A stretch of 21,501 nucleotides of DNA from a virus. Positions 2,226-21,494 of this stretch are shown in pieces. The stretch is from positions 1 to 21,501 of IMG/VR virus record IMGVR_UViG_3300033571_008901. One strand, 5' to 3'. A program made the translations under genes and the position numbers. Within the stretch, counting starts at the first letter, position 1, and every line of letters begins with the position of its first letter. A model generated the notes under the pieces. It was not told where the DNA came from. It was given only the letters and a program-made list of their open reading frames with translations, and did not search any database.

Positions 2226-2239
2226 AAAGGATTATCATG
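2226..2239 (+). promoter_or_regulatory. Strong ribosome binding site of the portal gene
   Basis: AAAGGA (2226-2231) is followed by TTATC and ATG. Nearly the same string, with one extra A, precedes the major capsid gene at 4566-4580. It supports ATG 2237 as the portal start and suggests shared high translation of two head genes. Confidence 0.6.
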
Positions 2240-3637
2240 GGTATTTTAGATATTTTCAGTAGAAAAAAACCACTAGAAAAAGAATCAAATACCCTGTTTG
2301 GGCAGACCCAGCTTGGTAATAATGTTATTTATCAAGGTGCATCTGGCAGACAGACAGTTTCCCAGCAACTATTATATGTAACTACAGCAAGCACTACTGC
2401 GGCTGGCAGACCATTGGATATGTCTGTTCTTAGCCGAAACAGCACAGTCATGTCCTGTGTAGGTGTAAAAGCTAGAGCATTATCCCAGTTGCCAATTGAA
2501 ATTATGTCTAAAGATGAGAATGGTGTATTTGTTAATGCCATTAAATCAAGCAAAGTAGGCACTAGAGATAAGACTAAAGCCAAGCAAGTATTGTCTTTAT
2601 TGCAATCCCCAAATAATTTCCAAAGCCAATATGAGTTTTGGTATCAATGGTCAATGTGGCAAGATTTGGCTGGTGAATGCTTTACCCTTTGGTGGAGAAA
2701 AGACCAACAAGATGCTGTAGCTACCCCGCTAGAAATGTATAACCTAGATGCTACTTTAATCACCACTCAATTAACCCCAGCTAGGTATCCTAGCTATAGA
2801 TTATCAACCCCTAGCTATGGATTTAACAAAGATGAGCCATTATCAGCCCATCAAGTTATGCATATTAGCGAAGCGGCTTGGCAAGGTGTAGCTGGCTTTA
2901 ACAAAGGCATTTTGGCAACCGAATTAGTGGCTTTAGACCAAGATATTGATATTTATGCCAATTATGTCATGTTAAATGGTGCAAAACCATCTGGCTTGTT
3001 TAGAACAGAGCAAGTGATTCCTGATGCTAAATATAAGGAAATTGCTGGCAGACTTAAAGAAGCATGGGCAAGCATGGTTGGTTCTAGAGATACCGATTTA
3101 TCTAAGCCGGGTCAAGGAATGCTGTTAGATCAGGGCATGACATTTGAAACAGTCAAAATGCTAACCCTACAAGATGCTGATGCGGCTAATCTAAAGATAC
3201 AAACCATGAAGCGAATTTGTGCTTTGTTTGGTGTACCCCCACAAATGCTAGGAATTGCAGAAGGTAAGTTTAATAACACTCAGACATTACTTGATGAGTT
3301 TTATAAAACTACTATGTACCCAATGATTATTAATATTGAGCAAAAGCTAAATCAGCATTTGTTAAAAGGGTATCCAAATTTATGTATTCGTTTTGATACT
3401 AAAGATTTCTTAAAGGGTGCTCCATTAGATCAAATGAATTTTGTTAATGCTGGTGTATCTGGTGGCATAATGACCCCCAATGAAGCAAGAGAATATCTAA
3501 ATATGCCTAAAGTTGATGGGGCAGATGAATTAAGTGGTAAATCAACTCCACAAGATAATATTGCTGGTTCTTCTCCACAGGATACTGGTGGGGGTGGTGG
3601 AAATCAAACCAGAAAAATGAATATAGGGAAACAATGA
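2237..3637 (+). CDS. Portal protein, HK97 family
   Basis: Portal protein (466 aa): the dodecameric ring at one capsid vertex through which DNA enters and leaves and to which the connector binds. The sequence follows the HK97-type portal pattern: an N-terminal region, the aromatic FWYQWSMW helix (about residues 134-142) followed by DLAGECF, the segment with HQVMHI and an A-W-x-G-V-x-G loop, and near the C-terminus ICALFGVPPQMLG (about 327-339) followed by an N-rich helix ending in YPMIINIEQKLN. The tail is low-complexity and Gly-rich. Length is normal for the family. The start is supported by AAAGGA eight bases upstream of ATG, and the TGA overlaps the next ATG (ATGA). Gene order, terminase then portal then protease, also supports the call. 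Confidence 0.93.
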   Translation: MGILDIFSRKKPLEKESNTLFGQTQLGNNVIYQGASGRQTVSQQLLYVTTASTTAAGRPLDMSVLSRNSTVMSCVGVKARALSQLPIEIMSKDENGVFVNAIKSSKVGTRDKTKAKQVLSLLQSPNNFQSQYEFWYQWSMWQDLAGECFTLWWRKDQQDAVATPLEMYNLDATLITTQLTPARYPSYRLSTPSYGFNKDEPLSAHQVMHISEAAWQGVAGFNKGILATELVALDQDIDIYANYVMLNGAKPSGLFRTEQVIPDAKYKEIAGRLKEAWASMVGSRDTDLSKPGQGMLLDQGMTFETVKMLTLQDADAANLKIQTMKRICALFGVPPQMLGIAEGKFNNTQTLLDEFYKTTMYPMIINIEQKLNQHLLKGYPNLCIRFDTKDFLKGAPLDQMNFVNAGVSGGIMTPNEAREYLNMPKVDGADELSGKSTPQDNIAGSSPQDTGGGGGNQTRKMNIGKQ

Positions 3638-3840
3638 AATTACTAGATAAAGTTTATTCCTTACTATCTTTGCAAATAAAAACAAGTAATGTTAAACTTC
3701 CCATAATAGATGCAAAATCCCCTAAAATACAAGATAATAACCAAGCTATTTCTAATGGGGCTATAAATGAAAAATCTAATTCTAGTTTGCGAAGCAAAAG
3801 TCCAACTGGGACAATCCGCAGACGAAGCACAAAATCCTAG
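3634..3840 (+). CDS. Small unknown protein between portal and prohead protease
   Basis: A possible 68-residue protein, not recognised. Its ATG overlaps the portal stop (ATGA), and AGGGA lies a few bases upstream inside the portal gene, so translation initiation here is credible. The predicted product is basic and Ser/Asn/Lys-rich, with a short hydrophobic start and no clear domain. Its last 74 bases overlap the protease gene in another frame, and the C-terminal residues (many R, S, K) look like a shadow of that gene. In its favour, positions 3638-3766 would otherwise be an unusually long gap in this very compact cluster. It may be a real small gene, or a translated leader that carries ribosomes to the poorly initiated protease start. 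No role is claimed. Confidence 0.4.
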   Translation: MKLLDKVYSLLSLQIKTSNVKLPIIDAKSPKIQDNNQAISNGAINEKSNSSLRSKSPTGTIRRRSTKS

Positions 3841-4567
3841 TGGCAAGATAGAAGCAAGAGCTACTACTTGGGGTGCTAGAGAAGGTGCTGATGGTAGAAA
3901 GTTTAATTACCAGCCTGAAGGTTTTGCACAATGGGCTGATGAATTCAATAAAGCTGGCAAACCTATGCCAATGTTCCTAAATCACAATGATATGGGAATG
4001 CCTGTTGGTCAATGGGATGAAGTAATGTTTGATGAAGGTGGAATGACTGCAAAAGGTCGTTTATTCATGAACACAGTAGGTGGATCAGACATTTATTCAG
4101 TATTAAAAGAATCTCCTAACCTATTTGGTGGTGTTTCTGTTGGTGCTTATGCAGATGAAGCGTGTATGGTTGATGAAGCTGGCAACCCATTGCAATTAGG
4201 CATTGATTCAGATGAAGGCTATTTCCAAATCACTAAAGGTGGTTTGCGTGAAATTTCTGTAGTTATGTATCCTAATAATCCAGCCGCAGAAGTTATGAAG
4301 CTAGAATATTTTGATGCAGATGGTCATGCTAACCCAAGAATAATCGAAAAAGCCTTGCGTGATGCTGGGCTTTCCAGAAAAGATGCGACCACCGCATCTT
4401 CAATCCTCAAGAAAGTTTTGGAACAGCGTGATGTTGAGCCAGAAGTAATTACTGAGGTAGCCCCACAACAAGGTGAGCTTGAAGCGGTGGTAAATGAAGC
4501 TGATGCAATTCTAAAAGCCTTACAGGAAAGAGAATTGTTGAAAGCATTATCTAATCGCATTAAATAA
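3767..4567 (+). CDS. Prohead protease, peptidase family S78 (HK97 gp4-like)
   Basis: Capsid maturation protease (266 aa), which cleaves the delta domain from capsid subunits in the procapsid and then itself. The S78 domain begins near residue 27 (KIEARATTWG). Candidate catalytic residues are H73 in MFLNHND and S124 in GGVSVGAYA; the family signature LREISVVMYPNNPAAEV follows at 160-176. The C-terminal part (190-266), with LRDAGLSRKDA and charged helices, is the usual self-removed scaffolding-like tail. The start is forced: TAA at 3764-3766 directly precedes ATG 3767 in frame. The only Shine-Dalgarno-like element is GGGG at 3757-3760, so initiation may depend on coupling to the upstream ORF. 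It ends 10 bases before the capsid gene on which it acts. Confidence 0.9.
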   Translation: MKNLILVCEAKVQLGQSADEAQNPSGKIEARATTWGAREGADGRKFNYQPEGFAQWADEFNKAGKPMPMFLNHNDMGMPVGQWDEVMFDEGGMTAKGRLFMNTVGGSDIYSVLKESPNLFGGVSVGAYADEACMVDEAGNPLQLGIDSDEGYFQITKGGLREISVVMYPNNPAAEVMKLEYFDADGHANPRIIEKALRDAGLSRKDATTASSILKKVLEQRDVEPEVITEVAPQQGELEAVVNEADAILKALQERELLKALSNRIK

Positions 4568-4580
4568 AGGAATTATCATG
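4566..4580 (+). promoter_or_regulatory. Strong ribosome binding site of the major capsid gene
   Basis: AAAGGAA, then TTATC and ATG, almost identical to the portal site at 2226-2239. It fixes ATG 4578 as the start and fits the high expression expected for a capsid protein. Confidence 0.6.
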
Positions 4581-5921
4581 AAAGAAGTTATTGAGAAATT
4601 AGACACAATCGAAGCCGCTTCTGTAGCTAAGATTGAAGAAGTAAAAGCTGAAGTTGCTACTACTGTTGAAGCCGCTAAAGCCGAATTTGCTGAGAAAGTT
4701 GCAAATTTAGAAGCTCGCATTTCTGAAGTACAAGCTCCAGCAATCGTTAAAACTTACACATCTTTGACACAAGAACTTAATCGTTCTGTTCGTGAGCAAA
4801 TTCGTGATTTCTACAAAGCTGGTAACAAAGTAGAAAAAGAAATCAAACTGTTTGAATCAGTAGATCAGTATGATGCATACATGAAGGAAGATGGCTCACA
4901 GTTGGGTAATCCAGCCGGTTATGGTTCTGGTTACAATGTGGGTGGTCGTACTGGTTACGATCCTGTATTCGTTTCTTTGCGTCAAACTAACCCATTGCGT
5001 GGTGTTTCTCGTTCTGTTGCTACTGATGGTTCTGCTTATCAGTTCCGCGCAAAAACTGGAAATGCTGGTGCTCAATGGGGCTATGCAATTCAGAACAATG
5101 GTGCTCCAACAACTCAAAACACAAACATCTGGCAATTGGTGTTGAAAGATTTGAACTGTGAATTCCCTGTTCGTACAGCTACCCTTGATGATATTGATGG
5201 TTTAGAAGGCAACATCATTTCAGACATGATGGCTGAATTTGGACAAGTTGAAGCTCAGTCTATGATCCTCAACAATGACCAAACAGATTCACCAAATACT
5301 TATGGTGGTACAAATGGTTTGCGTGGTTTAAATCAGTATGCTTATTCAAGCACTTATGCTGGTGGTACAACTCATGCTGCGGCTTATGGTACAAGTGGTG
5401 TTTCAACCAGCAATGGTCTGTCCACTATTACTACTTATGACCAGATCACAACCAATGGTACAAGCACAACAACCAACAACATCACTTACAAAGATGTAAT
5501 CAACTTTATCTACAGCTTGCCTAACCAATACTGGACTGAGAATGCTAAGTTCATGATTAATCCAATTCAATTGCAAGCAATTCGTGGATTAACTGATGAC
5601 CAGAAGCGACCAATCTATGTTGATGGCTTGGCTCGTACAGATGGCATCGTAGGTCAGTTGCTTGGCTTTGATGTTGTTGTTAATAAGTATTGCGATACTC
5701 CAAATGATCCGGGCACTTCTCCAAAAGCAGATTTGTTCCCAATGTTCTTTGGTGATTGGACAAAAGGTCATGCAATTGTTGATCGTTTAAACATGGTATT
5801 GCGTAGATACGACCAAACTCAACCGGGTTTCATCACATTCTATGGCGAAAAGCGCCTAGCAAGCTCTGTGGTAGATCCATTTGCGTTGGTAGCTTATCGT
5901 TCTACTCATACAGCAGACTAA
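4578..5921 (+). CDS. Major capsid protein 1, HK97 fold with N-terminal delta domain
   Basis: Main shell protein (447 aa). Residues 1-55 form an Ala/Glu/Lys-rich coiled coil, and helical sequence continues to about 105; this is the delta (scaffolding) domain that the S78 protease would remove. The HK97-fold body starts near GGRTGYDPVF (122-131) and carries NPLR, AKTGNA, WGY, LNNDQ and GLRGLN motifs and, near the end, QTQPGF and GEKR. Arginine is coded almost only by CGT/CGC (one AGA, one CGA among about 19), in contrast to AGG/AGA in the terminase, which suggests selection for high expression. The start has a strong AAAGGAA site. The stop lies at the base of an intrinsic terminator. A paralogous second capsid gene follows, so this one is taken as the main subunit because of its delta domain, strong initiation site and codon bias. 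Confidence 0.93.
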   Translation: MKEVIEKLDTIEAASVAKIEEVKAEVATTVEAAKAEFAEKVANLEARISEVQAPAIVKTYTSLTQELNRSVREQIRDFYKAGNKVEKEIKLFESVDQYDAYMKEDGSQLGNPAGYGSGYNVGGRTGYDPVFVSLRQTNPLRGVSRSVATDGSAYQFRAKTGNAGAQWGYAIQNNGAPTTQNTNIWQLVLKDLNCEFPVRTATLDDIDGLEGNIISDMMAEFGQVEAQSMILNNDQTDSPNTYGGTNGLRGLNQYAYSSTYAGGTTHAAAYGTSGVSTSNGLSTITTYDQITTNGTSTTTNNITYKDVINFIYSLPNQYWTENAKFMINPIQLQAIRGLTDDQKRPIYVDGLARTDGIVGQLLGFDVVVNKYCDTPNDPGTSPKADLFPMFFGDWTKGHAIVDRLNMVLRRYDQTQPGFITFYGEKRLASSVVDPFALVAYRSTHTAD

Positions 5922-5953
5922 AGGCTGGGGGAGAAATCCCCCACCTTTTTTTT
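5920..5953 (+). terminator. Intrinsic terminator after major capsid gene 1
   Basis: The 5' arm AAAGG-C-TGGGGGA (5920-5932) pairs with TCCCCCACCTTT (5937-5948), with one bulged C and a GAAA tetraloop of the GNRA type (5933-5936). It is followed by an uninterrupted T tract (5946-5953). The stem begins within the TAA stop of the capsid gene. This is a classical rho-independent terminator. It should reduce transcription into the second capsid gene and everything downstream, so later genes presumably rely on read-through or an unseen promoter. Confidence 0.9.
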
Positions 5954-5972
5954 AACTTATTTGGATTGAAAT

Positions 5973-7007
5973 ATGAACACCACTCTGATTTATGAAGCTA
6001 TTAAAAAAGCCTTAATTGAAGGCGAAGCCAAAGTAACATTTAATGAAGCATCCAATCTTACTGGCTCTGGATCAGGGATTGGTGGTCGTACAATTTATGA
6101 TGATTCTTTTGCATCATTGCGTATGGCTAACCCATTGCGTACTTATGCAAGAAAAATTACAACCATTGGCTCAGATGAAGCCTTTGTAGCAAAAACTGGT
6201 AATGCAACAAACCCAACAAATCCTTGGGGCTATGAATTTACACCCAATGTGGGAACACCCGGCGAAGATACTGCTTACTGGCAAATTCCAGTAAAAGTTA
6301 TTTCAGCACAGATTCCAATTCGTACTGCTGTTTTATCTGATATTAATGCATTAGAAGAATCAGTAGTAATGGATTTAGCTTTAGAATTTTTACAACAAGA
6401 AGCATTGTCCATGATGCTCAATAATGATCAATCAGGCTCTACCACCACTACAACTGGTGCTGAATATGGCTTGCGTGGTCTGAACTCTTATCCGAGTTCA
6501 ACAACTGAGGCATCTTTTGGCACAAATGGTTCTGCTTTAGATGATGGTATTCATACTGTATTAACAGTTCCACAAGCTAATGAATATTTAGTTTATAACG
6601 ATATTGCTAACCTAGCTTCTGCATTGCCAGCACAATATTGGAACTTTGATACAACTTGCTGGATGATGCATCCTACAACCATCAAGAATTTGCGTGAATT
6701 AACTGGTGGCACAAGTGGTTTGCCAGTATTTTTAGAGGTTGGCGATAAAGATGGTAGTGCTGTAGGCAATATTTTTGGTCATGAAGTGTTGCCTAACCCT
6801 TATATGGATGTAGAAGGTGGAGTAGGCAAGTTCCCTGTTTATTTAGCTGATTGGTCTAGATTTTTGACCATTGCTGATAATGAAGAATTTGTGCTCAAGC
6901 GTTTTGAACAGACCCAACCCGGCTTTGTAACTCTGTATGCTGAAAAGCGTGTAGTTTCTACAATTCGTGATGTGTTTGCTGGAGTTCGTTTAAGCTGGTT
7001 TGATTAA
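5973..7007 (+). CDS. Second HK97-fold capsid protein, paralog lacking the delta domain
   Basis: A 344-residue protein clearly homologous to the preceding major capsid protein over its whole body. Shared landmarks in the same order are GGRT, a SLR-x-x-NPLR segment, AKTGNA, WGY, a P-[VI]-RTA-x-L-x-DI segment, LNNDQ, GLRGLN, LP-x-QYW, QTQPGF and EKR. Only about 37 residues precede GGRT, against about 121 in protein 1, so the coiled-coil delta domain is absent. The two proteins have diverged strongly, so this is an old duplication or an acquired homolog. It lies just after an intrinsic terminator and has only a weak GGA-type initiation site, which suggests lower abundance. It may be a vertex (penton) or minor shell protein, by analogy with T4 gp24 beside gp23, or an alternative subunit. 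The fold is certain from similarity; the role is inference. Confidence 0.85.
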   Translation: MNTTLIYEAIKKALIEGEAKVTFNEASNLTGSGSGIGGRTIYDDSFASLRMANPLRTYARKITTIGSDEAFVAKTGNATNPTNPWGYEFTPNVGTPGEDTAYWQIPVKVISAQIPIRTAVLSDINALEESVVMDLALEFLQQEALSMMLNNDQSGSTTTTTGAEYGLRGLNSYPSSTTEASFGTNGSALDDGIHTVLTVPQANEYLVYNDIANLASALPAQYWNFDTTCWMMHPTTIKNLRELTGGTSGLPVFLEVGDKDGSAVGNIFGHEVLPNPYMDVEGGVGKFPVYLADWSRFLTIADNEEFVLKRFEQTQPGFVTLYAEKRVVSTIRDVFAGVRLSWFD

Positions 7008-7015
7008 GGTTAAAA

Positions 7016-7681
7016 ATGTCTAGCACTCTTACAAGTGGCTCATATTATGGATTGCCAAGGAATCCTTATAGCTATGAAAAAGTAGAGCAAATTAGTCGTG
7101 ATACAGTCACATCATGGCTAACTTTGGAAGAAATTACCCAACAGCTAAACCTTTTTCAGGATGAAAGCCAAGATTCATACTTATCTGGGCTTGAATTGGC
7201 TGTGCGTATGGCGATTGAGGACTATCTTGGTATGTCCATATTCCCAATCACTTATAAAGCCTACTATGGGGCTACAAACAATTCTATGGGGATGCAGACA
7301 TCGTTTGATCTGCCAGAAGTATCCCAGAACTTTAATAATCAGGCTGGAACAGTCATTAATTCAGTTGCTTACTACAATGGGGATAACCCACCAGTATTAA
7401 CAACAATAGCATCTACAGAATACTTTTATGATCCAACAGGAAATAAAGTTGTTGTAAATGCTTTGCCAAATGACATTAGCACAGTAATGACCAGCCCTGT
7501 TGTTATTACTTGGCAGACTAAAGCTAACCCAATAGCCCAGTATCCTGTTATCAAACAAGCTGGATTATTGCTTTTGACCCATTTATATAATAATCGTAGC
7601 AATTCTAATGCGGCTGTAATGCATGATATTCCATTTGGAGTTACTTCCCTTTTAAGACTTTATAAACCTTTGGTGCTATAA
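7016..7681 (+). CDS. Head-tail connector (phiE125 gp8 / HK97 gp6-like adaptor)
   Basis: Probable adaptor ring protein (221 aa) that binds under the portal. After a Tyr-rich leader the protein has the family pattern WLTLEEITQQLNL (about 35-47), followed by D-x-x-L-x-x-L-x-x-A and IEDYLG (about 67-72), which matches HK97 gp6-like connectors and the phiE125 gp8 family; the remainder is beta-rich. AAGG overlapping the upstream stop gives a plausible ribosome site seven bases before ATG. Its position directly after capsid genes and before the head-closure protein is the standard one. It abuts the next gene, with TAA followed at once by ATG. Confidence 0.75.
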   Translation: MSSTLTSGSYYGLPRNPYSYEKVEQISRDTVTSWLTLEEITQQLNLFQDESQDSYLSGLELAVRMAIEDYLGMSIFPITYKAYYGATNNSMGMQTSFDLPEVSQNFNNQAGTVINSVAYYNGDNPPVLTTIASTEYFYDPTGNKVVVNALPNDISTVMTSPVVITWQTKANPIAQYPVIKQAGLLLLTHLYNNRSNSNAAVMHDIPFGVTSLLRLYKPLVL

Positions 7682-8485: not shown

Positions 8486-9010
8486 ATGGCTCTTATTAAT
8501 AAAGTATTGCCCGGTTATGTGGCAACCCTATGGATGCAAGAAGGTGCTAGTCCAACAGCATTAACTGATGCTCAATTGTCCACATGGACAGGACAAGTTG
8601 CAAATATCGTTGGTACTGAAGCTGGTGGTGCTGGCACAGATGGTTTATTTGTTCCTGTTGAAGCTATCCCAGCCTTTGGTGCTGATGATGCATTTGCCGC
8701 CTATAATGTGGCTGGTGCTAGAACTGGTGCTAAGATCACCACTCAAAATCAAGTTACTTCTTTGACAATTACTTCTGCATGGAATCCAGCAGATACAGCA
8801 CAATTGTTAATTCGTGATGATGGCTACAATGGCACAATTATCCGTACTTATGTAATCGCTGTTTATGATGGTACAGATACAGTTGCTTATGCATTTAATG
8901 GTCGTGTAGGTGGTTTGCAATGGGATATGTCTCCAACTGCTGAAGGTAAATTTATCTTCACTATTCATCCAGTTGGTGGCAATTCTTATGGCTGGTCTAA
9001 CAATACTTAA
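8486..9010 (+). CDS. Major tail (tube) protein
   Basis: Probable tail-tube subunit (174 aa), which polymerises around the tape measure to form the tail. The sequence is rich in short beta strands and in Gly, Ala and Thr, with no coiled coil or hydrophobic helix, as in siphovirus tube proteins. It sits between the tail terminator and the chaperone/tape-measure genes. GAGG about 9 bases before ATG is a good initiation site, and arginine codons favour CGT, like the capsid genes, consistent with a high-copy structural protein. Specific family membership cannot be confirmed by eye; position, size and codon use are the main support. Confidence 0.7.
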   Translation: MALINKVLPGYVATLWMQEGASPTALTDAQLSTWTGQVANIVGTEAGGAGTDGLFVPVEAIPAFGADDAFAAYNVAGARTGAKITTQNQVTSLTITSAWNPADTAQLLIRDDGYNGTIIRTYVIAVYDGTDTVAYAFNGRVGGLQWDMSPTAEGKFIFTIHPVGGNSYGWSNNT

Positions 9011-13079: not shown

Positions 13080-13681
13080 ATGTAATTCCACCAGTAAACA
13101 ATACAAATAATATTCGATATGCAGATTTTGTTAGGGTAACTACACCTGATGCAATCTATCGCTTTGCATCTACAGCATCAGCAATTACAGTTCCAGAAGT
13201 TGATTCACAGCCATTTGATGCTTTGGGAGTATTAATTAAAGTAGGCGATACTCAAAGAGATATTAAATCTACTGCAAATGAAACCACTTTTACTTTGGTT
13301 GGTATTGATACAGCCGCTTTAGGCTGGGTATTGGGAAACCAAATTAAGGGAAGCCAAATTGAAGCATGGAAAGGCTTTTTTAATACTGATGGTGAATTGC
13401 TAACAACTGGTGGATCAGGTGGTTTGTATCAATTCTTTAATGGCTATATTAACTCTTTTGCTATTGATGAAACTTGGATGGAAGAAATAAGGGCATTTGT
13501 TGGTGTTATTACAGTTGCCGCATCTTCTATTCAACTAATACTTAAAAATAGAACTGCTGGAAGATATACCAATAATAATAATTGGCAATTTTTTAATGCT
13601 GGTGATACCAGTATGGATAGAGTTGCTTTTATTACTAATATTAATTACAACTTTGGCAAAGGAGCATCGCCAAACTCATGA
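13076..13681 (+). CDS. Minor tail / tail hub protein
   Basis: A 201-residue beta-rich protein. The N-terminal part (YADFVRVTTPDAIYRFAS) and the 'F-x-A-L-G-V-L-I-x-V-G' strand resemble phage hub proteins that carry a thin beta-sandwich. The C-terminal section with NRTAGRYTN (about 158-166), a D-T-S-M-D-R segment and a terminal 'NFGKG' matches the R-x-[ST]...D-T-x-[FM]-x-x-[VI]...WGK pattern seen in minor tail proteins upstream of J-type tip proteins. This is lambda gpL-like in position, but no cysteine cluster for an iron-sulfur site is present. It overlaps the neighbours on both sides by ATGA. Function is by context. Confidence 0.6.
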   Translation: MNVIPPVNNTNNIRYADFVRVTTPDAIYRFASTASAITVPEVDSQPFDALGVLIKVGDTQRDIKSTANETTFTLVGIDTAALGWVLGNQIKGSQIEAWKGFFNTDGELLTTGGSGGLYQFFNGYINSFAIDETWMEEIRAFVGVITVAASSIQLILKNRTAGRYTNNNNWQFFNAGDTSMDRVAFITNINYNFGKGASPNS

Positions 13682-14112
13682 TAAGACAAGCCACAAGACA
13701 AGATAAAGAGCAGATTATTGAATTAATGAAATTGTTTAGAGCAGAATCTAATATTAAACAATATCAGGGATTAGATAATGAGCCATATTGGAATAAGATG
13801 TTAGATACAATATTGGCTGGTGCTGGAATTATATTTATAGAAGATAATGTGGGATTAATAATGGCAATTATTACTCCTACAGTATGGTGCGACAAAACCT
13901 TATATATGCAAGAATTGGCATGGTATGTTAAACCAGAAAAAAGAAATACAAGTATTGGATATAGATTATTAAAAAAATATGTTGAATATGGAAATAAGTT
14001 AAAAGAAGAAGGCAGAATAGCTATGTTTGCAATAGCAAAAATGGTTACTAGCCCTGATATAAAGTATGGAAAATTTGGGTTTACAAAATTAGATGAAAAT
14101 TGGATTCAATAA
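13678..14112 (+). CDS. GNAT-family N-acetyltransferase
   Basis: A 144-residue protein with the GNAT layout. The N-terminal strand and helix IRQATRQDKEQIIELMKLF (2-20) are typical. Motif A lies at 79-98 (ELAWYV, then PEKRNTSIGYRLL), where acetyl-CoA pyrophosphate would bind; the usual R/Q-x-x-G-x-G/A is R89-N-T-S-I-G94, with Ser in place of the first Gly. Motif B-like YGKFGFTKLDE lies near the C-terminus (130-140). The enzyme would transfer acetyl from acetyl-CoA to an amine; the substrate is unknown. It sits inside the tail operon, overlapping the hub gene (ATGA) and the tip gene (TAATG), which implies co-translation with tail components. It could modify a tail protein, a host protein or a surface component. 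Confidence 0.85.
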   Translation: MIRQATRQDKEQIIELMKLFRAESNIKQYQGLDNEPYWNKMLDTILAGAGIIFIEDNVGLIMAIITPTVWCDKTLYMQELAWYVKPEKRNTSIGYRLLKKYVEYGNKLKEEGRIAMFAIAKMVTSPDIKYGKFGFTKLDENWIQ

Positions 14113-19133: not shown

Positions 19134-21494
19134 ATGCCAACAATCAATTATGAAAATCCTAATCAAATTACTTTAGTCATTGACAAAGGAACTGCTGGAC
19201 CGGCTGGAGCAACAGGAGCATCTGGATATTCTGGTTTCTCAGGGTTCTCGGGCTATAGTGGTTTAAATGGCAATGCTCAAAGTGGTGTATCAGGCTATAG
19301 TGGTTATTCGGGCTTTAGTGGGGCTACAGGAGCTTCTGGAACATCAGGCTATAGTGGCTACTCAGGAAGTGGCATATCAGGCTTCTCAGGCTTTTCTGGG
19401 GCTTCTGGTTCAGGCACATCAGGATATTCTGGCTTTTCAGGACAATCTGGAGCAAGTGGATATTCTGGTCAGGTTGGTGCATCTGGCACAAGCGGATATT
19501 CTGGATATAGTGGAATTGGTGTAAGTGGCTATTCAGGATTTTCAGGAGCACAAGGCACATCAGGATTTAGCGGTTATTCTGGTCAAAATGGACAATCTGG
19601 CATTTCTGGTTTTAGTGGTCAAGATGGTGCTTCTGGTATATCTGGTTTTTCTGGGGAATCTGGCATTAGTGGCTATAGCGGATTTTCTGGCTATAGTGGT
19701 CAGCAAGGCACATCAATTAATATTCTTGGCACAGTACCAACACCAGAAGATTTACCTACAACTGGCAATTTAAATGATGGTTATATTGTTGAATCAAATG
19801 GTGATCTGTATATATGGACAGGATCATCATGGACTGATGTTGGACAAATAGTTGGTCCGGCTGGTCAAAGTGGAATTAGTGGTTTTTCAGGTTTCTCTGG
19901 TGAATCTGGAATTAGTGGTTTCTCAGGATATTCTGGCGAATCAATACAAGGCGAATCTGGCTATAGTGGCTATTCAGGACAAGATGGACAGTCTGGTTAT
20001 AGTGGCTATTCAGGTCAAGATGGGCAATCAGGATTCTCAGGCGAATCAGGATATAGTGGATTTTCTGGTCAAGATGGATTAAGTGGTTTTTCAGGCGAAT
20101 CAGGCACTTCTGGTTTTTCTGGCTACTCTGGTGATTCTGGTATTTCTGGCTACTCAGGGTTTAGTGGCGATTCTGGTATTAGTGGTTTCTCTGGTTTTTC
20201 AGGGGATTCTGGAATCTCTGGATTTAGTGGCGATTCTGGCATAAGTGGATTCTCTGGCTATTCTGGCGATAGTGGCATTTCTGGATTTTCTGGCATATCA
20301 GGATATTCTGGAATTAATGGTCTAAGTGGTTATTCAGGTCAAAATGGACAATCTGGAATTTCTGGCTTTAGTGGAATTTCTGGATGGTCTGGACAATCAG
20401 GTTTCTCAGGCGAATCTGGAATAAGTGGATTTTCAGGATATAGTGGTATATCAGGATATTCTGGTTTTAGTGGTGATTCAGGCATATCTGGATATAGTGG
20501 ATTTAGTGGAGAGCGCGGATTATCTTCAAGTTATTTTCAATATCAAGCAAGAGCAAATATACAATCTGGTTATCCGGGTAATGGAAATATTCTTTGGAAT
20601 AATTCAACTCAAATAGATGCTACTGCAATTAATGTTTCACATCTAACATCGAATAATATTGATATTGATATTTATTTATCATTATTGTCCAATGGTGAAC
20701 AATTTGTAATTCAAGATTCAAACTCAAGTGCCAATAATCAAGTTTGGACAATTTCTGGAACTCCAACTGTTACTAATGCTGGTACATCTACTGCCTATTG
20801 GACTTATCCAGTAACTTTGGTATCAAGCTCTGGAACTGGAACAACAAACTTTTCAAATACAAGTAATTTAATTTTTGCACTTGTTAATGGTGTGTCAGGT
20901 TATTCAGGCTATTCTGGATATTCAGGGTTTAGTGGCTATAGTGGATTGTCAGGATTTAGTGGCATTAATGGCGCATCTGGATTTAGTGGCTATTCTGGTG
21001 CTGTAGGTGCAAGTGGTATATCAGGTTATTCAGGCTATTCAGGATCAGGTGTATCTGGTTATTCTGGTTTCTCAGGCATTAATGGGACATCTGGTATTAG
21101 TGGATTCTCTGGTGCAAATGGAGCATCAGGCTTTAGTGGCTATTCGGGTGCAACAGGGGCAACAGGGACATCAGGGTTTAGTGGCTATAGTGGGGCAACT
21201 GGAGCAACAGGACTGTCTGGATTCTCAGGCTACTCTGGAGCACAAGGCACATCAGGCTACTCAGGCTATAGTGGTAATGCAACTGGATTAATTTATGATG
21301 TATTTACTGCTACTGCATCGCAAACAACATTTACAACTTCCGTAACATATTCTTCTGGCAAAATTGAAGTATTTGCCAATGGAGTTAAAATGCGAAATGG
21401 AAGTGATGTAACAGTAACAAGTGGAACATCGGTAGTATTTGCAACTGGTTTAACATCAGGAACATTGGTAGATTTAGTCTATCCAAGACCATAA
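19134..21494 (+). CDS. Collagen-like tail fibre protein
   Basis: A 786-residue fibre. A short N-terminal strand (1-18) is followed by three Gly-X-Y tracts (about 19-194, 241-461 and 586-716), about two thirds of the protein. Position Y is nearly always Ser; position X is mostly Tyr, Phe, Ile, Glu or Asp; proline is almost absent. Insert 1 (195-240) is the hinge module with PEDLPTTG, GYIVESNGDLYIWTGSSW and DVGQIVGPAG seen between collagen tracts of other phage fibres. Insert 2 (463-585) is a larger beta domain. The C-terminus (717-786) is a 'F-x-N-G' beta module related to repeats in the tip protein. Likely a trimeric host-recognition fibre. A polyglycine-II-like bundle is an alternative to a collagen helix. 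Confidence 0.85.
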   Translation: MPTINYENPNQITLVIDKGTAGPAGATGASGYSGFSGFSGYSGLNGNAQSGVSGYSGYSGFSGATGASGTSGYSGYSGSGISGFSGFSGASGSGTSGYSGFSGQSGASGYSGQVGASGTSGYSGYSGIGVSGYSGFSGAQGTSGFSGYSGQNGQSGISGFSGQDGASGISGFSGESGISGYSGFSGYSGQQGTSINILGTVPTPEDLPTTGNLNDGYIVESNGDLYIWTGSSWTDVGQIVGPAGQSGISGFSGFSGESGISGFSGYSGESIQGESGYSGYSGQDGQSGYSGYSGQDGQSGFSGESGYSGFSGQDGLSGFSGESGTSGFSGYSGDSGISGYSGFSGDSGISGFSGFSGDSGISGFSGDSGISGFSGYSGDSGISGFSGISGYSGINGLSGYSGQNGQSGISGFSGISGWSGQSGFSGESGISGFSGYSGISGYSGFSGDSGISGYSGFSGERGLSSSYFQYQARANIQSGYPGNGNILWNNSTQIDATAINVSHLTSNNIDIDIYLSLLSNGEQFVIQDSNSSANNQVWTISGTPTVTNAGTSTAYWTYPVTLVSSSGTGTTNFSNTSNLIFALVNGVSGYSGYSGYSGFSGYSGLSGFSGINGASGFSGYSGAVGASGISGYSGYSGSGVSGYSGFSGINGTSGISGFSGANGASGFSGYSGATGATGTSGFSGYSGATGATGLSGFSGYSGAQGTSGYSGYSGNATGLIYDVFTATASQTTFTTSVTYSSGKIEVFANGVKMRNGSDVTVTSGTSVVFATGLTSGTLVDLVYPRP
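19188..19715 (+). repeat. Collagen-like G-X-S repeat tract 1
   Basis: About 58 nine-base units coding Gly-X-Y, with small phase breaks (for example GNAQS, GSG and GIGVSG). Ser is coded by TCT, TCA, TCG, AGT and AGC, and Gly by all four codons, so the DNA is less repetitive than the protein. Confidence 0.9.
19854..20516 (+). repeat. Collagen-like G-X-S repeat tract 2
   Basis: About 73 Gly-X-Y units with a single visible break (GESIQGES). Higher-order blocks such as G[ED]SGISGFSGYS recur, and the acidic residues D and E appear regularly in position X, more often than in tracts 1 and 3. Confidence 0.9.
20889..21281 (+). repeat. Collagen-like G-X-S repeat tract 3
   Basis: About 43 Gly-X-Y units. 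It starts with consecutive GYS/GFS triplets and has GATGAT blocks towards the end. One GSG break is visible. It leads into the C-terminal beta module. Confidence 0.9.

Follow-up and report, generated by a model that had tools for sequence, protein, structure and literature searches.

Introduction

How hexamers and pentamers are built from one capsid protein is a central question in capsid assembly. That a separate paralog may take the pentamers is already known in phages, with T4 gp24 and the SaPI protein Ccm as the cases met in the literature consulted. The T4 genes for gp23 and gp24 are adjacent. The gp24* protein, a paralog of gp23, forms the pentamers and loses 10 residues compared with 65 for gp23, and the pair is thought to derive from a duplication (PMC9958956). 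In SaPIbov5, the capsid homolog Ccm fills all of the pentamers and the capsid protein (CP) of phage phi12 all of the hexamers, and through this pentamer occupancy Ccm shifts the phi12 heads from prolate to isometric (PMC8569155). HK97-fold paralogs are reported to co-assemble also in the two-component encapsulins, in variable proportions (PMC12407261).

Here we analyze two tandem genes, P1 and P2, in a 21.5-kb virus record (the window, meaning the whole stretch of DNA that was analyzed). As in T4, the two proteins are HK97-fold paralogs and the second is encoded beside the major capsid protein, in tandem in all testable loci; their identity is 38%, compared with about 20% for the T4 pair. T4 is a 170-kb prolate myovirus with separate core proteins, whereas the P1/P2 phages have genomes of ~36-41 kb and their scaffold is the delta domain of P1. 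As with phi12 CP and Ccm, an HK97-type delta-domain capsid protein is accompanied by a second capsid homolog. Ccm is satellite-encoded and serves to hijack the head; it carries an 87-residue delta domain and shares 24% identity with CP. P2, in contrast, is the phage's own gene, is always present and has no delta domain. The Rhodobacter GTA capsid (Rcc01687) and HK97 gp5 share the fold of P1 and P2, as well as the delta domain and S78-type protease seen for P1, but there one capsid gene serves all positions, whereas the P1/P2 phages have two. A keyword search, in a literature mostly without subscription papers, returned no published penton paralog of a siphophage. New within the literature searched are the obligate pair in a small siphovirus family, the use of the capsid's own delta scaffold, and the P2-specific insertions.

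Results and discussion

Two HK97-fold paralogs in one head operon

The window encodes, in order, TerS, TerL, portal, S78 protease, P1, P2, adaptor, connector and tail genes. The head genes considered here are the following.

2237..3637, + strand: portal protein, which sits at the twelfth vertex (PF04860, phrog_12)
3767..4567, + strand: head maturation protease (Peptidase_S78), candidate processor of P1 and P2 (PF04586, phrog_80)
4578..5921, + strand: P1, major capsid protein of 447 aa and HK97 fold, bearing a delta (scaffold) domain at the N-terminus (PF05065, TIGR01554, phrog_10, AlphaFold2, Foldseek)
5973..7007, + strand: P2, the second capsid paralog (HK97 fold, 344 aa), which lacks a delta domain and is a proposed minor or vertex subunit (PF05065, TIGR01554, phrog_10, AlphaFold2, Foldseek)
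7016..7681, + strand: head-tail adaptor, immediately 3' of P2 (phrog_40)

The protease (3767..4567) scored under the cut-off of the TIGR01543 model. An ORF of 68 aa (3634-3840), for which no family match was found, overlaps both the stop codon of the portal gene and the beginning of the protease ORF.

The open reading frames of 447 and 344 aa were found where a previous reading made from the DNA alone (the sequence-only reading) had placed them, and the eight landmarks that it listed occur in the same order in both proteins (8/8). BLASTP aligns the two at 38% identity over residues 116-438 of P1 (329 columns, 207 bits, E 1e-67), which is far above chance level. Both match PF05065 (112 bits for P1 and 67 for P2, curated cut-off 24.2), TIGR01554 (116 and 76 bits, curated cut-off 27.5) and phrog_10, the major head protein family. 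A phmmer search of P2 against the PDB sequences gave no match, to T4 gp24 or otherwise, and the closest known capsid to P2 among those found was P1 itself.

Single-chain AlphaFold2 models were built from alignments of 90 and 85 relatives, with pLDDT values of 69 for P1 and 79 for P2. Both models present the E-loop, spine helix, P-domain and A-domain of the HK97 fold. Their top Foldseek match is the Rhodobacter GTA capsid (PDB code 6tb9; E 3.3e-18 for P2 and 2.8e-17 for P1), followed by HK97 (1ohg) and other capsids, and P2 aligns to 6tb9 with a Z of 25.4 (VIA-align). The P2 model thus matches solved HK97-fold capsids, and the assignment of P2 to this fold, on which the sequence-only reading depended, stands. 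T4 gp24 was not among the structural matches listed for P2, which has no bearing either way. Covalent chainmail of the HK97 type is not expected, since the acceptor N356 of HK97 aligns with an invariant glycine in both proteins (G417 in P1, G317 in P2); the position of the catalytic E363 is retained.

Comparison of the two families bears on how P1 and P2 would share the shell. Conservation across both extends to 62 positions, including the K-x-G-N of the E-loop, and the structural matches of P2 include a two-component Family 2B encapsulin, a type of shell reported to vary in composition (PMC12407261). Together with the common fold, these features would agree with a P2 that joins the hexamers, or hexamers and pentamers alike, at variable occupancy and is not a dedicated penton. 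We regard such mixing as rather unlikely. The E-loop holds a fixed difference between the families (R157 in P1, V72 in P2), and the P1 loop positions G255, G262, T291 and N293 are missing in P2; these differences suggest that the two proteins pack differently in their capsomers, and the expression signals of P2 (below) indicate a low share of the shell.

N-terminal regions and a candidate processing site

The two proteins differ ahead of the fold.

4578..4889, + strand: delta region of P1 (residues 1-104), with long helices predicted up to the invariant E104 (putative processing site YMKE/; model secondary structure, invariant column)
5973..6047, + strand: P2 N-terminal stub, residues 1-25, up to the invariant E25 (FNE/ASNLTGSG), counterpart of E104 in P1

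In the AlphaFold2 model of P1, helices 2-50, 63-80 and 95-105 precede the fold, whereas the fold of P2 is preceded by no more than about 25 residues, which include a single short helix of low confidence. P1 has the N-terminal helical domain, ahead of a putative processing site, that marks a fused delta scaffold, and P2 is without it. The claim that the delta domain belongs to the first protein only is borne out, but P2 does keep its stub of ~25 residues.

Immediately N-terminal of the fold, most members of both families carry the motif [L/M/F]xE-AS-x-L-T-G-S-G, and one glutamate, E104 in P1 and E25 in P2, is invariant in both alignments. The P1 of the window retains the glutamate, and its sequence diverges beyond it (MKEDGSQLGN). 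The motif around this residue is a candidate processing site common to P1 and P2. Prohead cleavage in T4 takes place after x-x-Glu. The prohead protease of SPN3US also cuts after x-x-Glu (AXE), preferably with Ser as the next residue (PMC10052503). We infer that the upstream protease would cut both P1 and P2 at the invariant glutamate. The putative P2 propeptide of ~25 residues would then resemble the short one of T4, where gp24 loses 10 residues and gp23 65 (PMC9958956).

The pair is found together in every testable relative

A 36-kb IMG/VR record is near-identical to the window across the compared stretch. Among cultured phages, Methylophilaceae phage P19250A (KX815270) comes nearest to the window; it has the gene order of the window and both paralogs: gp05 is 60% identical to P1 and gp06 53% identical to P2. 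While gp06 carries the annotation "hypothetical protein", and no study of it was found in the literature searched, our analysis corrects the annotation of gp06 and of many relatives to capsid proteins. Synteny with P19250A has been reported for the marine OM43 phage Venkman (PMC8163748). Venkman was considered as a second cultured member and rejected; its annotated head genes comprise a scaffold gene of its own and a single major capsid gene, and P1 and P2 do not match it.

The search for the same gene pair in other phages returned hundreds of IMG/VR loci in addition to P19250A. The survey comprised 226 loci, a count that overstates the number of phages because several loci overlap on the same contig, and 139 distinct complete pair sequences. 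P2 was present at all P1 loci with more than 1.5 kb downstream (183, plus the flagged locus L220), and P1 at all P2 loci with more than 1.9 kb upstream (n=178). Apparent lone copies of either gene all proved to be contig ends or broken ORFs. Additional scans seeded with the two most divergent P2 sequences gave the pair in 150 of 160 loci, the other 10 of which begin at a contig end. Around the related, single-capsid type of Rhizobium phage RHph_X2_25, a second capsid gene was found in 0 of 78 loci (one had a split ORF). Nine relatives of 36-41 kb were searched whole with PF05065, which detected two genes in seven and P1 alone in two. In one of the latter (L004), direct comparison does reveal a P2, 93% identical, so that the miss reflects the sensitivity of Pfam; the other (L355) had entered the survey through its P2. 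The phages with the pair are a family of small freshwater tailed phages (siphoviruses), with genomes of about 36-41 kb.

All P2 sequences form one clade (support 100/100) on a long stem, and a single old duplication is the simplest account of the pair. The rooting of this duplication is weak because the outgroup branches are very long, and for the same reason the tree does not settle which paralog is nearer the ancestor.

Both genes have omega values of about 0.1-0.2, and P2 is thus maintained. For P2, omega was 0.12-0.20 against the close relatives of the window, with a median of 0.09 over 61 pairs, the relatives being non-independent data points. P2 varies somewhat more than P1, with a mean column identity of 54% compared with 68%, and in one relative (L085) P1 is 93% and P2 65% identical to the window. 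This divergence is what one would look for in a functionally redundant or decaying duplicate, a reading to which we give almost no weight in view of these omega values and of the fact that no testable locus is without P2. The purifying selection and the hundreds of relatives also led us to reject a pseudogene or an assembly artefact, so the decay in relatives that would have counted against the sequence-only reading was not seen.

A further possibility is that P2 sets the size or shape of the head by fixing curvature, selecting one T number or the isometric form in the manner of Ccm with phi12. Ccm is a clear precedent (PMC8569155), and such a role is compatible with a place at the vertices, neither excluding the other. 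As an explanation in its own right we think it quite improbable. P2 is present throughout the family, and the long records that were searched in full measure 36-41 kb, so that neither two size classes nor a conditional use of P2 is indicated. Furthermore, P2 is not encoded by a satellite but belongs to the head operon of the phage itself, where it lies between P1 and the adaptor.

Expression signals point to a minor subunit

The expression signals around the two genes are as follows.

4566..4571, + strand: Shine-Dalgarno AAAGGA of P1, duplex -5.6 kcal/mol
5926..5953, + strand: intrinsic terminator immediately 3' of P1, TGGGGGAGAAATCCCCCA CC TTTTTTTT, conserved in relatives
5961..5965, + strand: weak Shine-Dalgarno TTGGA of P2, -3.1 kcal/mol

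The terminator after P1 is a strong one and recurs in the relatives, where 114 of 121 and 101 of 105 distinct regions 3' of P1 have it (94-96%), compared with 0.9% of shuffled P1 regions. The sequences of stem and loop vary greatly, while the hairpin and the T-run persist. After P2 a terminator was seen in 3 of 117 and 0 of 116 distinct regions (0-3%), and after TerL, portal, protease and adaptor in none of the relatives. Mean Shine-Dalgarno energies are -5.8 kcal/mol for P1 and -4.0 kcal/mol for P2. The fraction of favoured C-ending codons is 0.42 in P1 and 0.28 in P2, with P1 above P2 in 111 of 117 cases. The loci are related by descent, and p-values would exaggerate this case. Given the intergenic terminator, the weaker Shine-Dalgarno site and the less biased codons of P2, this protein is probably made in smaller amounts than P1, in support of the minor-subunit role suggested by the sequence-only reading.

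One-capsid phages, too, commonly have a terminator behind the capsid gene (25 of 62 in the outgroup, and a putative one annotated in the HK97 record), and hence this feature does not set paralog pairs apart. The terminator is a mark of high P1 expression and does not single out P2; its effect in the P1/P2 phages is to place P2 among the less expressed genes. A gene of no known family in the window (8486-9010) has a terminator-like hairpin directly 3' in 12 of 100 relatives, and is perhaps a highly expressed major tail protein.

A low predicted expression, and the fact that P2 adjoins the connector genes, could also be read as the mark of an assembly factor absent from the virion, for instance one that nucleates the shell around the portal, or of a protein at the portal vertex only. 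We hold this to be very unlikely, as P2 keeps the complete capsid fold and a putative processing motif of the P1 type, for which a transient factor would have no need.

A proposed model with P2 at the pentameric vertices

We consider it highly likely that P2 is a minor shell subunit of some kind. The arrangement that we favour, with a rough probability of 0.6, has hexamers of P1 and pentameric vertices of P2; the vertex location is suggested by T4 gp24 and SaPIbov5 Ccm, precedents whose place in the shell is known and which both fill pentamers. In this model, for which we infer the protein amounts, the cleavage, the T number and the place at the vertices, two HK97-fold paralogs from one old duplication would build the head. 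P1 would be the abundant subunit, carrying the delta scaffold and forming the hexamers. The terminator after P1 would halt most transcripts and, with the weaker ribosome-binding site, lead to less P2. P2, without a scaffold domain, would enter the shell through contacts with P1 and form the pentameric vertices, at about 55 copies compared with about 360 of P1 if T=7, a value assumed from genome size. The S78-family protease would then probably trim P1 and P2 alike at their common [L/M/F]xE-AS motif. A ratio of about 55 to 360 is in line with the attenuated expression of P2.

Since the pair is obligate, one member is in culture and natural variants affect P2 only, these phages would be a simpler system in which pentamer specification, the setting of copy number by a terminator, and the vertices as display sites can be tested.

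Added domains and divergence in P2

Additions to the capsid fold were seen in P2 at two places, the first of which corresponds to an uninterrupted E-loop in the window.

6204..6221, + strand: site within the E-loop of P2 (residues 78-83) at which a domain is inserted in one clade; no insert in the window

In the clade with the insert (e.g. L087, L093-L107, L110 and L114), ~75 residues lie between AKTGN and WGY, within the E-loop and between strands 68-75 and 99-106 of the P2 model (coordinates L087:4291-5529, L094:5923-7170, L104:5965-7209 and L114:4976-6211 for insert-bearing P2). Both phrog_21413 and a family of tail fibres match the insert, and the P1 proteins of the same phages are without it. 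The inserted domain is possibly a binding domain displayed on the head.

In another clade (e.g. L017, L026 and L091), a ~100-residue domain of phrog_2859, a family of unknown function, is found in frame upstream of P2, right behind the terminator (L017:5701-7023, L026:5701-7026 and L091:5953-7284). An internal Shine-Dalgarno and ATG remain at the usual P2 start, so two products from one frame are possible. The statement that P2 has no scaffold of its own thus applies to the window and most relatives, with the exception of this subclade and its upstream domain.

Divergence between close relatives follows the same pattern: in L087, P1 is 89% and P2 63% identical to the window, similar to the values for L085 given above. 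This suggests that P2 is swapped by recombination or evolves faster. Its tolerance of added domains would suit an exposed minor subunit. From the P2-only E-loop insert, the N-terminal fusion and the divergence of P2 where P1 is nearly unchanged, we advance, as a tentative idea more doubtful than not, that this family of small siphoviruses evolved a dedicated HK97-fold penton separately from T4, and that the vertices serve it as a display platform that can be altered.

Two observations concern the tail genes of the window. A possible GNAT acetyltransferase lies within the tail module (13678-14112; phrog_1249, with Pfam matches under the cut-off). A tail-region protein of 786 aa (19134-21494) contains many collagen triple-helix repeats (PF01391, 7 stretches, E 1e-70).
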